In this document: positions 52,006-58,655 of the stretch, in pieces
How the letters are laid out: each line of letters opens with the position of its first letter
Position numbering within the stretch: position 1 is the stretch's first letter
DNA from: Chrysoporthe austroafricana
Taxonomy: Eukaryota > Ascomycota > Sordariomycetes > Diaporthales > Cryphonectriaceae
Assembly: GCA_001051155.2 (NCBI GenBank)
Contig: JYIP02000007.1
Coordinates: 3,598,342-3,662,341 of the forward strand
Length of the DNA stretch: 64,000 nucleotides
Direction of reading: 5' to 3'
Made by a program: the position numbers and the translations under genes
The notes under the pieces: generated by a model
Seen by the model: the letters and a program-made list of their open reading frames with translations, nothing else
Database searches by the model: none
Told to the model about the DNA's origin: nothing

Positions 52006-52011
52006 GAACCC

Positions 52012-52172
52012 TAACCCTTGCTTATCCACGCATGCCCGCGGAGATGTTGGGTTCGGCATGACGTATTAGGTGGGGAGACGAGAGAATATGTCACGAGCAT
52101 TTCCGCGGGATAATACGACGTCGGATGATCGTCTCGGGGATATATATAAATTCCGTAAGCAAGGGTTAGGGC
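52012..52172. mobile_element. MITE-like element, TIR CCCTAACCCTTGCTTA (copy 1)
   Basis: Begins CCCTAACCCTTGCTTA and ends with its inverse (GTAAGCAAGGGTTAGGG), 161 bp in all, non-coding. The interior shares CGTCGGATGATCGTCTCGG with copy 2 (58268-58413) in inverted orientation. The TIR contains the telomere-like TTAGGG/CCCTAA unit. No clear target-site duplication. Confidence 0.6.
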
Positions 52173-52308
52173 TGATCAGAGCCCTCTCTTTTTGCCGGAC
52201 AGACTACCTTGTAGCGCATTACTGCCCGGAACTAACCAAACGTATTGGGAGATGCATTGCGCCGCTTGTTTAATGTAATCCGAAAGGAGATTGATTTGCT
52301 CGTTCAAG
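52150..52308 (+). repeat. left inverted arm bounding the FunK1 unit
   Basis: From the ATTCCGTAAGCAAGGG motif to GCTCGTTCAAG it matches the reverse complement of 58158-58302 at about 90 percent or better, apart from an 8-nt insertion and one length difference (right arm about 26 nt shorter). The core TGTTTAATGTAATCCGAAAGG is a family-2 module. Confidence 0.85.
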
Positions 52309-52382
52309 ACCGTAGCGAACGCAAACAAGAGGGGAGGTGAAGAAGAAGCCGAAAGGGTCGAGGGAGGCGGGTGAGATAAAGC
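52309..52382 (+). repeat. 74-nt mirror repeat, left half
   Basis: Begins ACCGTAGCGAACGC and ends GTGAGATAAAGC. Read backwards (not complemented), 58157 down to 58084 gives exactly the same 74 bases. It abuts the inverted arm (ending 52308) with no gap. Confidence 0.95.
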
Positions 52383-52683
52383 GCTTTCTGCCTGTATGCC
52401 GGCCGGCAAAGCCAGAGCAGGTGCATGTCTTCCTTCTCGGAAAAGAGATGTTCCTTCCGGCTGACTCAGCTGCGTGGCTGAGCTGGCAACGCGACCTCGA
52501 CCAGTCGCGTCCAGCTCAGGGGTCCTATCTTCCTTCTACGGCGTCTCGATCGCAGCCGCAGACCGTCAAAAACCATTCGAATGGGAAAGGCCTTGATTTC
52601 TTTCGCTCGTCTTTCAGTCACTTGCGAATACAAGAGCGTCTCGTGCTCGCCGGACGTGGTCCATAACCTCGAGCGCCAGCCAC

Positions 52684-52800
52684 CTTAGTGCGCGGACCGC
52701 CTTGTGGCCCGTGCGCAGCCAGGCGGACACCCTTGCCTCGACCTGTTTTCGCCAGCCAAGCTGGTCAGATCTTCGCCCTGACACAACCTTCCAGCCAGCA
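52684..52800 (+). promoter_or_regulatory. shared upstream module ahead of FunK1
   Basis: GTGCGCGGACCGCCTTGTGG and AGCCAAGCTGGTCAGATCTTCGCCCTGACACA are shared with the regions upstream of the HET fragment (36180-36300) and inside the A/B divergent promoter (42613-42690). Either a promoter-proximal repeat or a common 5' flank carried along by duplication. Confidence 0.5.
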
Positions 52801-53091
52801 GCTTCCAGCCGCCATCTTCCTCCCTACGCGCCCATTCATCTAATCACATCATGATACAGATCTCCGCAAGCTCGTCTTCATCCTTCTGAGAGCGGTCCAA
52901 TACATCCCCGCTGCCGGCGTGCTACCTGCCAGAACGCGTCGTCTCGAGGCGATCTCACTGCCGACGCTCTCGACCCCGTCCTCGACCGCATTTGAAGATA
53001 CGCTTACCGTGCTGTTACCGAAGCAACCCCCCCTTCCTATACCGCCAGCCCCTTCCCCCCAACAGATTCCGTGGCTCTGCGCATATTTACA

Positions 53092-55821
53092 ATGGCGGAT
53101 CAGTCGCTGTCCGAGGTCAAAAGCCATCCGATTGGGAAAAACCTCGATGCTTTTCGCGCTTCTTTTGTTTCACTCTGTGAAGACAGAAACATCTCCTGCA
53201 CCCCAGACGCGCTTGACCAGCTTGTGAAAGAAGGTAAGAGAGATGGATGTTTCGTTAAGAGAGCGGCAAGCATGGCCGTCCACGAAAATGGATTCAAATG
53301 ATCAAACCTATCTGACTTCTATACAGATATCCAGAATCTTGCCCTCGATCTCGTGCTTGCTTTCCGAAACCTCCTAGCCGTTCGCAGCCTACACTCTAAT
53401 GCAAACCACAGCGCCGCCCTTCGCAATAATACCTTACGACTCAATTCCATGATCAGCTTTGACGACTTCGACCCCGACCGTATCAAACCCCTCCTCAAGA
53501 CAGCCTTCAAGACAGCCTTCGAGGACTGTCCCGACAATACGCTGCTCTGGGACAAACTCCATGATGCTGTCACTACCGTATCCGCCCCGCGAACCCCGCC
53601 GCCGCGACCGATCGCGACCCTCCTCGAGCAGACCCCGTGGGTCTATACTACGAGCGGCATCATGAACTCGTCCGAGAAACGTGAAGAGGTGGACAGGATC
53701 CTTAAGCAGGAACTTGGTCCTCTCTATGTCGATATTCCTTCCTTCGACGAGATATACTTCGGACGGGTCGCAGGCCTGGAGGCAGGGTCCAGGGCTGTTT
53801 TTGAGAAGTGCGCCGAGGGCAGCAACCCGCTCTTTGGCCCCCGAGGGTGGCGCGATTGGCCGGCAGTCACATCAGAGAAAAACGTGGTGAGCTGGTTCAA
53901 TGACCTGTTCCCCAAGCTGCAAGCATTCGCAAAGGACTGGAGTGCCGCGCCGACACCTGCGCCGACACCTGCGCCGACCCCTCAACGAAAGCTGCTAGCA
54001 CAACCCAGCACGCCGCTCCTAGACTCTGTGGGAAAGCGCAGCATGGATATCGGCTTTGTCAAGGACGACCCTATCACAAGAGCAGCAAGCGGTCTCAGAT
54101 ATCGGTGGTTGGACGTCCTTGTGCCTGGCGAGTTGAAGATCGATCCGTCTTATGATATACCCTCGCTTGCATGGTTGAGTATTGCGACATACGCAAGGGA
54201 AGTGCTCTCTGGCAGCAAAACCCGTCGCTTTGTCCTATGCTTTACCCTCTGTGGGTCGCTTATGAGACTCTGGGAGTTTGACCGGCTCGGGGGAATTGCG
54301 TCCGATCAATTCGATATCAACCAAGACGGGCTGCGGTTTGTATCCGCAATGCTCGGTTTTCTGTGGATGAACGAAGAGGAGCTTGGCTTTGACCCGACAT
54401 TTAAGAGGACACCGAGCGGCCAGCAGTTCATTGAGATCGATCGGAACGGCGTAACTGAGCGTCTCATGATCGATAGAGCAATCATATACCAGCGTTGCAT
54501 AGCTGGCCGAGCAACAACCTGCTGGCAGGCTCACCCCGAAGACGATCCTCGGACAATACTTGTTGTCAAGGATTCATGGCAGTTTCCAGAGAGGGATGTG
54601 GAAGGTGACTTGCTCCGCAAGGCGACTGATAAGAAGGTTGTCAATATGGCCCGGTATTATCATCACGAGATTGTCCAGATAGGCGGTACCGATGATGATA
54701 TCCGGAGCAATGTGCGCAAGGGACTGGACATCACCAAAGCTTCCAACTACAAGCCGGACTGGACAGACTTTACGCCGCGCGCAAGAGCAACAAGTGTCTC
54801 TCGGAGAGGCCGGAGCAGCAGTGTTGCCGCCATGAAGCGGCTTTCCAGCCAGGCTGTCGCCCCTCCGCCACCAATCAACCGGCCAGCAAGCAGCAGACGG
54901 CCGTCCAGCCAAGCCAGCACATCTCTGCCACCACTGAGCCCGCCCTCCAGCCATGCCAGCACGTCTCGGCCGCCGAGCAAGCGGCCGTCCAGCCAAGCTG
55001 CTGACGCCCCCCAAGCTAGCACACCTCTGCTGCCGACTAAACGGCCCTCCAGCCATACCGACGACGCACTTATGCCACCCAGCAAACGATCCAGGCAATC
55101 GCGAACTCCCAACGAGGCCAGCACTGCTGCCACCACCCTGCCGGACCGGGTACATAGGCGTACTATTGTTCGCGATTATGGGCTGCCGATCTATAAAGCA
55201 AGCTCGCGGGCGAGCCTGCTCGCCGCGCTAGAAGGTTGCATCGCGGGACATGAATCCCTATACCGGGCAGGCTTCCTGCATAGGGACATCTCGGTAAATA
55301 ATCTCATTATCAACGAAGATCCCAGCAACCCGTCCTGGCAGTCGTTCCTGATCGATCTGGACCTTGCTATTGAGATACCACGAGATGGCGCGTCGGGCGC
55401 CAAGGGCATCACCGGAACCAGGGCTTTCCTAGCCATAGGCGCACTTATGGGCGAGCAGCATTCGTTTATGCACGATATCGAGTCCTTCTTCTGGGTTCTC
55501 CTCTGGATCTGCATTCACTACGAGGGGCCTGGCGAGGAGAGAATTGTTCCCGAGTTTGATAGGTGGAACTATGTGGACGGGGACACGCTGCTCAAGATAA
55601 AGGCCGGTGTGATCACGAGCAATATCTTTGCGCGGACAGTCAGACAGGACTTTACCGACTACTACCGGCCGCTGATCCCACTTGTAAACAGACTGCGGGA
55701 AGCGATCTTTCCTGGGAATGAATGTTGGAAGCAGGAGGATCCAGGTCTGTATGCGAGGGTACGGAAAATCCTCGCAGACGGCTGTACAGACCCAGACATT
55801 ACCGCCTTGCCAAATAAGTAA
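53092..55821 (+). CDS. FunK1 fungal-type protein kinase with N-terminal PD-(D/E)XK-like domain, 878 aa
   Basis: Exons 53092-53233 and 53327-55821; intron 53234-53326 (GTAAGA donor, ATACAG acceptor). The start MADQSLSEVKSHPIGKNLDA is preferred, as the frame continues across the intron into DIQNLALDLV. The N-terminal half carries V-P-G-E-L-K (315-318), then ATYAREVLSGSKTRRFVLCF, TLCGSLMRLWEFDRLGG and LGFLWMNEEELGFDP, the typical FunK1 leader with an ExK nuclease-like strand. A Ser/Pro linker (about 550-655) has repeated K-R-P-S-S-Q-A units. The kinase lobe has LHRDISVNNLIIN (HRD at 699-701), FLIDLDLAIE in place of DFG, GTRAFLAIGAL and HDIESFFWVLLWICIHYEG. All match Pkinase_fungal (PF17667). Intact. 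The substrate is not established for the family. It lies inside the inverted-arm unit. Confidence 0.92.
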
Positions 55822-55839
55822 ATAGCATAATAGTAGCCG

Positions 55840-56830
55840 GCGCGGGCCACGTCTGGGTAGTGCGCAGCAGTTTGGTCTATTCTAGTCTTGTCTGTCGACG
55901 CAGAACGGTACCGAGCCTTCAAAACCCCTCGGGGAGGTATATAGCAGGTCGCATATTGCTATTCTGAACTTGTCCGAACGATCTTGACCCGTATATGCGC
56001 AATGCGAGGCCGATCTGTCTGTCTGGAGGCTGCATCTGCTCGGGGCGCCCGGGCGTACCAAACAGCCCGATAAGGGCGTCCGAAAGCCATAGCGCTACGC
56101 AAAGAGGTGCTGCGCCCTCGAGACCCTTCAGGATGGCTGCAAACAGGCCGTGCGGTGCATCTCCGGGTAGCTTCGGGCGGTGCAGGCCTGCGTGGCAGGC
56201 TTTATGCCGTTCGGACTGGTCTTCGGACTCTCTGGGTCTTTGGGGGTAGATGGCCTTTGGCGCGGGCGCGCAGCGAGGGCGAAGGCGAGGGCGCGGGGCG
56301 GCAGACAAGGCATATGGTGGAATTCGCACCACTACCATCACCATACCACATCACACCATACCACACCACAGCACACCACACTATAATGCGTCGCACTGAC
56401 ACCACTAACGCCCGGGGGGTACGGATACTCGACGATAAGCCTGGGAATATATTGAGGGGTGCGGGGGGCGGGGCCCTGGGGATAACGAGAGGGAGGGGAA
56501 CAGACGTGAACGACGCGCGCTGCACCACTACTACCGCCACCACCATCACCACCGCCCGGGAGGAGGGAAGGACGCTGAAAGGGGGGCGCGGACACCTGAT
56601 GGCGGCTTGGGGATACGTCGCGGGAGGCAGGGGAGGCCTGGGGGCGACAAAGGGAGCGACTGAGAACAAACCACATACCACGGCAATGCGAGGCTGGCAA
56701 CAACAAAAGGGGAAACTCGGAGACAAACTGAAACCCCCCGGCAACGACAAAAGGAGACGAAACGATACGGACTGCTTGTCCATGCGCACGGGAGGCCGGA
56801 AGGGGGGGAAACCTGGAGCTATACGAGCTG
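55840..56830 (-). repeat. repeat family 2 (inverted) plus block of shared modules
   Basis: 55965-56190 is the inverted relative of 49540-49740 (CGAACGATCTTGACCCGTAT; GATCTGTCTGTCTGGAGGCTG; GGGCGTCCGAAAGCC; AACAGGCCGTGCGGTGC). It is followed by the TTCGGGCGG module (56170-56240), GGTACGGATACTCGACG (56418) and the GGGGCGACAAAGGGAGC module (56640-56760). Confidence 0.75.
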
Positions 56831-57840
56831 TAGAAGCTGCAAGAGCTCTGTATAAGCTTTCGGAGCCGTAAAGTGCGAGCTGTAGGAGGAGTAGGAGCAG
56901 CTCTGGCAGCCGTACGAGCTGTGCAGGCTGTAAGAGCTGTACGAGCTTGGGAGCCGTACAAAGCGGAAGTCTGGGAGATCTGAGAGCTGTCGCAGCTGTG
57001 CGAGCCTTCGAAGCTGTAAAGTGCGAGCCGTAAGAGGTATAGAAACTGTAAGAGCTCTAGGGGCTATGGGCAGATGAGCTGTACGAGCTGTGCAAAGATA
57101 AGGTCTGGGAGGAGGAGTAGCAGGAAGAATGGCGGCTATGCGAGCTATGCAAGCTTTGAGAGCTCTGTGCAAGCTCTAAGAGCTCTGTGCAAGCTCTGAG
57201 AGCTATGGAATGCGAGCTGTGGGAGGTATGGAAGTTGTAAAGAGTTCCGGGAACTGTGGGAAGAAGATCTGCGCGAGCTGCGAGAGGAACAGGAATAGCT
57301 CTGGCAGCTGTACGAGCTGTACAAGCTGTGCAAGCTGTGCGAAAAGGAGGTCTGGTAAGAGCTGTGGCAGCTTTGCAAGCTCTTCGAGCCGTGCGAGCTC
57401 CGGAAGCTGTAGAATGCGAGCTGCGAGAGCTGCGAGAGGAGTAGGAGCAGCTCTGGCAGCTGTGCGAGCTGTGCGAAGAGGAGGTCTGGTGGGAGCTGTG
57501 GCCGCTGTGCAAGCTCTTCGAGCTATACGAGCTCCGGAAGCTGTGGAGTGCGAGCTGCGAGAGGAGTGCGGGCTGTGGGAGCTGTGGGAGCTGTGGGAGC
57601 TGTGGGAGCTGTGGGAGCTGTGGAAGCTGCAAGAGCTCCGCAGGAGCTCTCGGAGCTGTAAAGTGAGAGCTGTATAAGCTGTAGGAGGTGCGCAAGCTGT
57701 AAGACGTCTGGGGGCTATGGAAGGAAGAGCTGTAGCAGGATGCGAGAGGATACAAGGTGATCATGCTGCTCTGGCCTTGCCGGCTGGCACACAGGCAGAC
57801 CGCCAGCCAGCCAGCACCAGTGCGCGTGATCACGTGGTTC
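56831..57840. repeat. GAGCTGTGN minisatellite (block 5)
   Basis: Dense 9-bp units, including five or more perfect tandem GAGCTGTGG at about 57578-57630, with GTCTGGGAG and GAAGAGGAG interruptions. The block ends with the GGCCTTGCCGGCTGGC / CAGCCAGCC module and the 20-bp core at 57841-57860. Confidence 0.85.
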
Positions 57841-58083
57841 GGCTATAGTCGGACATAAGCATCACTACAGCTGGTCGTGCGGGGCACAGCGGAGCACAGC
57901 AGGGGATAGCTGTGTGCTGTGTGCATGACAGCAGTATGTACGAAAGACAGCTGTGTGCACGAAGGATAGCTGTGGGAGAGGGGGATAGCTGTATGCGCGC
58001 TAGCCTGGCTGTGCCTTGTGTGCTGGTGGCAGCCTTGTCCCCCGCCTACCAGCCTTGTCTCCCTCGGCCACCAGAGGGAGCAC
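57841..58083 (+). repeat. core-motif repeat module
   Basis: Starts with GGCTATAGTCGGACATAAGC and continues through GTGCTGGTGGCAGCCTTGTC and CCAGCCTTGTCTCCCTCGG, the same order as at 11376-11440, 21439-21545 and 48461-48620. Confidence 0.75.
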
Positions 58084-58157
58084 CGAAATAGAGTGGGCGG
58101 AGGGAGCTGGGAAAGCCGAAGAAGAAGTGGAGGGGAGAACAAACGCAAGCGATGCCA
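58084..58157 (+). repeat. 74-nt mirror repeat, right half
   Basis: Runs from CGAAATAGAGTGGGCG to GCGATGCCA. Its bases in reverse order equal 52309-52382 exactly. It abuts the right inverted arm at 58158. Confidence 0.95.
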
Positions 58158-58302
58158 CTTGAACGAGCAAATCAATCTCCTTATATCCTTTCGGATTACA
58201 TTAAACAAGCGGCGCAATGCATCTCCCAATACGTCTGGGTGGTTCCTGTCCGGCGAAAAGAGAGGGGGCTCTGATCAGCCCTAACCCTTGCTTACGGAAT
58301 TG
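58158..58302 (-). repeat. right inverted arm bounding the FunK1 unit
   Basis: Reverse complement of 52150-52308, from CTTGAACGAGC to the CTTACGGAATTG motif. Contains GCGGCGCAATGCATCTCCCA, identical to the left arm when reversed and complemented. Confidence 0.85.
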
Positions 58303-58413
58303 CGTATGTCTCCGTGCGTATATCCGAGACGATCATCCGACGCGCACGCATCCAGACCCTAACGACCAATCGTTAGCCGCCCTTGGCACCGCGCTGCACA
58401 AGCAAGGGTTAGG
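58268..58413. mobile_element. MITE-like element, TIR CCCTAACCCTTGCTTA (copy 2)
   Basis: Begins CCCTAACCCTTGCTTACGG and ends GCACAAGCAAGGGTTAGGG, 146 bp. The interior shares CGAGACGATCATCCGACG with copy 1. Flanks are CTGATCAG and CTATCAGG, with no convincing duplication. Confidence 0.6.
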
Positions 58414-58655
58414 GCTATCAGGATGTTGAGTCAGGACAGATCCAACGTAGCCTGATCATCCTCTTCTCTCTCCTCTTTACCATCGCTACGTTTCGACATA
58501 CTACACCGCACATTGTTCCATTGGTCGTCTTGCGTCTTCCCATACTCTTCTTTCCATTCTGCTTCTCTCCCGCACAGCACAGCACCCAAACAAAATACTG
58601 CATCGCACATCCGCAGTAGGCACCAGAAGAACACAGTCGCCCGCCATCCCATCGC
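58414..58655. other. no gene seen
   Basis: Pyrimidine-rich interval between the MITE-like element and the tandem repeat. Short ORFs only. Confidence 0.3.

Follow-up and report, generated by a model that had tools for sequence, protein, structure and literature searches.

Short segments complemented in place, without reversal, in repeats of one contig of the Chrysoporthe austroafricana assembly

Antiparallel copying or joining of DNA, in any number of rounds, yields only direct sequence or its reverse complement. We know of no recombination, template switch, polymerase or other enzyme that copies or joins strands in parallel, nor of any templated route, inversion and template switching included, that leads beyond these two products. 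Mirror-symmetric letters are a property of H-DNA motifs, which are homopurine mirror tracts and require the two mirror halves to lie close together. A further class, swinger DNA, is said to be represented by the 16S sequence of Kamimuria wangi (doi 10.3109/19401736.2015.1033691). As set out by Seligmann, swinger DNA follows the exchange A<->T+C<->G, so that the homologue is recovered by complementing without reversal, and the switches to and from regular sequence are abrupt (PMC4942731; PMC7027195). According to the same author, the DNA cases obey this rule only (PMC4942731), and the author's own RNA cases are conceded to be possible sequencing artefacts (PMC7027195). Template switches give reverse complements (PMC7954356), and the blocks produced by short-range template switching and micro-inversion are short, sharp-ended and often near inverted repeats (PMC7954356; PMC8755829).

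Here, a stretch of 64,000 nucleotides, in the following called the window, was analysed. It covers C20:3598342-3662341, C20 being the label of the contig, in a genome of 48.15 Mb in 22 contigs. The features of the window are the following:

52119..52308, + strand: left inverted arm, from the arm alignment
52309..52382, + strand: left counterpart of the patch in normal orientation, with the same form in the repeat copies L002 and L003; homology of the family ends at 52382
53353..55821, + strand: open reading frame located between the arms, whose 822-aa product is a protein kinase of fungal type by its Pfam match (PF17667 Pkinase_fungal, E 2.6e-131)
57804..58069, + strand: left-hand neighbour of the patch, normal in form and a paralogue of the copy L037 (read as reverse complement) and, from about 57946, of L003
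58070..58157 (C20:3656411-3656498), + strand: patch of 88 nt complemented in place, not reversed; complementing it restores the alignment to the left copy, L002, L003 and L037
58158..58342, - strand: right inverted arm, from the arm alignment; over its first 25 nt it reproduces the left arm, read as reverse complement, without mismatch (25/25)

Read from 58157 down to 58084 without complementing, the right-hand segment reproduced 52309-52382 at 74 of 74 positions, whereas the same pair agreed at 0/74 positions as reverse complement and at 14/74 in direct reading. The match was exactly 74 nt long and both of its ends were sharp. When the window was compared by BLAST with its complement (E <= 1e-3), the pair emerged at E ~1e-31, and the sole other match was a low-complexity self match of 25 nt. 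Within the window the pair was also the sole exact match, mirror or parallel, that reached 20 nt and contained 10 or more different trimers. The initial annotation, which had described an exact pair that was reversed and not complemented, adjoined true inverted arms, changed from antiparallel to parallel at a single base (58157/58158) and was too long for chance, was thus accurate as to the letters.

The arms themselves form an ordinary inverted repeat, with 5 mismatches in 162 aligned columns plus 51 gap columns, and a genome search with the right arm (E <= 10) returned three places: itself, the left arm and the place of L037. The telomere-like word CCCTAACCCTTGCTTA is repeated within the arms and close to them, in one orientation or the other (52009-52024, 52156-52171, 58277-58293 and 58400-58416). 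The patch falls outside the kinase frame, of which the closest named relatives were proteins of Cryphonectria parasitica EP155 at 66-72% identity. Between 56815 and 57750 the window harbours long degenerate arrays of a 9-nt GAGCTGTGG-like unit; among the matches listed in the genome, all were on C20 at about 3.0-4.03 Mb.

A genome search with the left junction found three places, these being the junction itself, L002 (C20:3750650-3750743; 97% over 94 nt, with the left form right after the end of the arm) and L003 (C20:4088279-4088319; 95% over 41 nt), and the search with the right junction found no place besides itself. In L003, the homologue of 57946-58068 runs on into part of the left form, read as reverse complement, which is how a normal inverted repeat is arranged. 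L037 (C20:3795900-3796380), a paralogue of the right-hand context with an internal deletion, keeps the first approximately 27 letters of the disputed stretch in normal form, directly after a shared CGGCC. Each of these three copies spans only part of the disputed stretch. Because all three share the left form, the right copy is, as judged from the letters of the family, the anomalous one, complemented base by base in place over 58070-58157 with its order kept, and the same agreement ruled out the left copy as the odd one. L030 and L038 carry no weight on which form is normal; both diverge close to the patch.

The edges of the patch are at 58069/58070, set by L037 right after CGGCC, and at 58157/58158, and both flanks are normal. 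After complementing in place, the patch matched L006 (the same place as L002) at 95% over 86 nt and L010 (the same place as L003) at 94% over 50 nt; its first 14 nt can be compared with L002, L003 and L037 only, and show a few substitutions. These 14 nt extend past the left-arm homology into sequence proper to the patch's own context. What had been taken for an independent 74-nt mirror repeat is hence better described as an 88-nt in-place complement of the right copy, the 74 nt being simply the portion still covered by the left copy. Its location at the inner edge of the arms is just the point where the complemented patch breaks the inverted repeat.

When 344 kb of C20 were compared with the complement of the same sequence, one further high-complexity pair was detected, between L011:508-578 and L031. 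The weaker matches set aside from this comparison (53 rows in total) were either simple or self-mirror sequence or else AT-rich matches with 66-94% identity and E values of 3e-6 to 0.006, and some of these could be decayed patches. Searched for across the genome, the in-place complement of L031:1-380 had two matches and no more:

L011:508-578 (C20:3662808-3662878): patch of 71 nt complemented in place, 96% match in the complement search
L033:428-532 (C20:3592228-3592332): patch of 105 nt complemented in place, 94% match in the complement search

L031 is a member of a dispersed element of approximately 285 nt, as estimated from alignments of its copies, with about 25 copies listed on at least 8 contigs. 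In the genome search with L031:80-260 (34 rows listed), 23 places matched straight across the interval, an interrupted copy on C16 matched in two pieces, and L011 and L033 matched only beside the interval. Across this interval L033 (C20:3592202-3592392) was 86% identical to L011. The two patches overlap in the coordinates of the family, with sharp edges and normal flanks, and have 69 letters in common, all identical. They coincide at neither end, the offsets being 2 nt and 36 nt. After complementing in place, both aligned without gaps in the patch to L031, L034, L035 and L036, which are 4 of the 23 places matching straight across. The three patches (88, 71 and 105 nt) all lie inside 70.7 kb of C20, those of the second family about 6 and 64 kb from the patch in the window. 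The initial annotation had presented a single event, and a one-off glitch is ruled out by L011 and L033; on the evidence of the assembled letters, in-place complementation is recurrent, with three patches in two repeat families.

Since the search with the complement of L031:1-380 recovered both patches, the method is able to find such patches. With the in-place complements of window positions 57745-58068 and 55935-56320, nothing was found in the genome at E <= 10, an empty answer that alone shows little in either case. Among the matches listed, the family of 57745-58068 has many copies on C20, up to 97% alike, and the copies of 55935-56320 are mostly approximately 66-77% alike, so that patches in the latter family could be missed. 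The clustering of the patches is a result about repeats, as the approach tests these only and would miss patches in single-copy DNA.

The 23 possible base exchanges were applied to 345 kb and the matches filtered for a minimum of 24 trimers and 85% identity. Of those that passed, 12 belonged to the complement, 1 (a trivial self match) to one other rule and none to the remaining rules, which excludes under this filter a bias towards arbitrary base exchange. Without the filter, the other rules gave from 0 to 498 hits at E < 1e-3, the best of which were self matches (for rules keeping two letters) or simple sequence, and the exchange rule TACG gave an 82% echo of the pair in the window. The ends of alignments that continue as complement, scored in the same 345 kb, formed 4 clusters at 19-20 of 20 positions, all of them already known cases. 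For comparison, no cluster arose with either of two other base maps, 1 arose with in-place reversal and 4 with in-place reverse complementing, all of these at 17/20.

Set beside swinger DNA, the nearest counterpart claimed in print, the patches show identity to the homologue only after every base is complemented without reversal (74/74 in the window; 94% for the 105 nt and 96% for the 71 nt), all three return abruptly to regular sequence at both ends, and the exchange is A<->T+C<->G and not another rule, as seen in the filtered comparison. They differ from swinger DNA in being 71-105 nt long, inside repeats, outside the kinase frame and three within 71 kb, in occupying twice one site of sibling copies and in having several normal copies in the same genome. 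At the level of letters the patches would therefore belong to the swinger class, a label that here denotes a letter pattern and not a proven molecule: a polymerase origin is Seligmann's claim for swinger DNA, and the patches are known from assembly letters. With the products of short-range template switching and micro-inversion, as these are presented in PMC7954356 and PMC8755829, they share the short block, the sharp ends and the neighbourhood of inverted repeats; those blocks are reverse complements, in contrast to the 0/74 found here.

The explanation best suited to these observations is that the three patches are errors from the production of the consensus, in correction, polishing or gap filling, and not DNA, to which we assign a probability of approximately 0.62. 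The follow-up here agrees with the initial annotation, which had named an assembly or polishing error as the foremost ordinary explanation, and an orientation error is ranked first because templated routes give no parallel complement while software emitting reverse-strand letters naturally does. A correcting or filling program might lose track of the strand inside repeats that are hard to map and would then write the reverse-strand letter at every position in forward order. This could happen in a walk through a k-mer graph with a flipped orientation flag, or in a pileup to which minus-strand reads are added uncomplemented. The product would keep length and order and have its letters complemented, with sharp ends at the limits of the walk or of the read coverage.

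An artefact is favoured by the proximity of both second-family patches to that in the window despite family copies on at least 8 contigs, and by the patches of L011 and L033 being near the same position of the element with different ends, as software acting twice could produce. It is favoured weakly also by the private letters, of which these two patches, complemented in place, contain 0 in 176 columns against 7 in 364 in the flanks (one-sided Fisher p = 0.06, six copies compared). This argument is weakened by the four normal copies, used as a control, which also have fewer private letters in the patch region (7/428 columns) than outside (19/652), and the region may simply be better conserved. 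In the window, the homogeneity of the patch relative to the arms (74/74 against 5/162 mismatched columns plus gaps) was not significant (p = 0.15). Taken together, the letters give at most a hint of patches that arose recently or were taken from a family consensus.

The sample contained three non-ACGT letters in all, each a lone N, at C20:3736990 and 3738073 (both in L005) and 3578577 (L032). They lie at distances of between 14 and 75 kb to the nearest patch, and two of them have runs of G or C of at least 13 within about 40 nt. They may reflect an imperfect consensus, or else letters that were withheld. We know of no published tool that was shown to make the error proposed here, and in the literature on complemented-but-not-reversed sequence nothing matching was found in titles and the beginnings of abstracts. 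A general bug is argued against by the two other repeat stretches, for which no complement match was obtained in the genome. Neither was the patch in the window simply pasted from the left arm, since it runs 14 nt beyond the homology to that arm, and copy-pasting of the arm by a gap filler as the sole cause is accordingly weakened.

The alternative that the patches are real DNA, an unfamiliar process having put the parallel complement into young repeat copies repeatedly in one chromosomal region, is considered unlikely, yet it is the one that survives best. The three patches are sharp-edged and each matches the family sequence proper to its place, and the complement alone among the 23 exchanges gave non-self matches passing the filter. 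The overlapping patches of L011 and L033 with their different ends might represent repeated events at one site, or alternatively a single event that conversion with normal copies shortened afterwards. Patched regions were folded with a view to hairpins at the junctions as a possible trigger: those of L011 and L033 folded better than shuffled versions (z -3.1 and -4.9), and the patch in the window did not (z 0). Against this stand the lack of an enzyme known to us for parallel synthesis or joining, the count of 0 private letters inside the two patches tested and the tight cluster on one contig. The more particular proposal, that in-place complementation of 70-105 bp really took place several times in the region and came back to one site in sibling repeat copies, is slightly less probable still. 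It would have the strands swap base identity without rotation, and need parallel-templated synthesis or a novel repair step; for parallel-stranded copying, too, titles and the beginnings of abstracts yielded nothing matching.

Hand finishing, in which segments were pasted at a few places of one region by the use of 'complement' instead of 'reverse complement', is improbable. It would account for three patches in 70.7 kb with none further for the L031 family or the two other stretches tried. Targets of 71-105 nt inside dispersed repeats would be odd choices in a genome of 48 Mb in 22 contigs, however, the more so as two are at one site of siblings with different ends. It is very improbable that one in-place event, real or artefactual, occurred in a source copy that was transposed to L011 and L033, the patch in the window being separate. 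The identity of the 69 common letters and the family-diagnostic letters that L011, L033 and L036 have in common would fit such a descent, but L036, about equally close, is normal, and later trimming has to be assumed because one copy has normal family letters where the ends differ. Chance, a mirror repeat of the H-DNA type and an ordinary micro-inversion or template switch can be dismissed for practical purposes: 74/74 at mixed composition speaks against the first and 0/74 as reverse complement against the last, and an H-DNA reading, for which the mirror-symmetric pattern and the 77% purine of the patch might be cited, is ruled out by halves 5.7 kb apart and by the other copies, in which the symmetry is seen to be a by-product of one side complemented in place.

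If the patches were real, they would break the rule that templated DNA change is antiparallel only and constitute a new class of mutation. If they are artefacts, as we think likelier, they would represent a type of error that the usual checks would miss, because length, spacing and GC content are unchanged and 70-105 nt of letters are wrong, and they would suggest an ordinary source for database entries of swinger DNA. Elsewhere on the contig, the repeat blocks listed in L015-L030 (C20:3402301-3562300) are strongly AT-rich, with 17-34% GC, and lie beside GC-rich repeat DNA, a picture resembling RIP-type decay.
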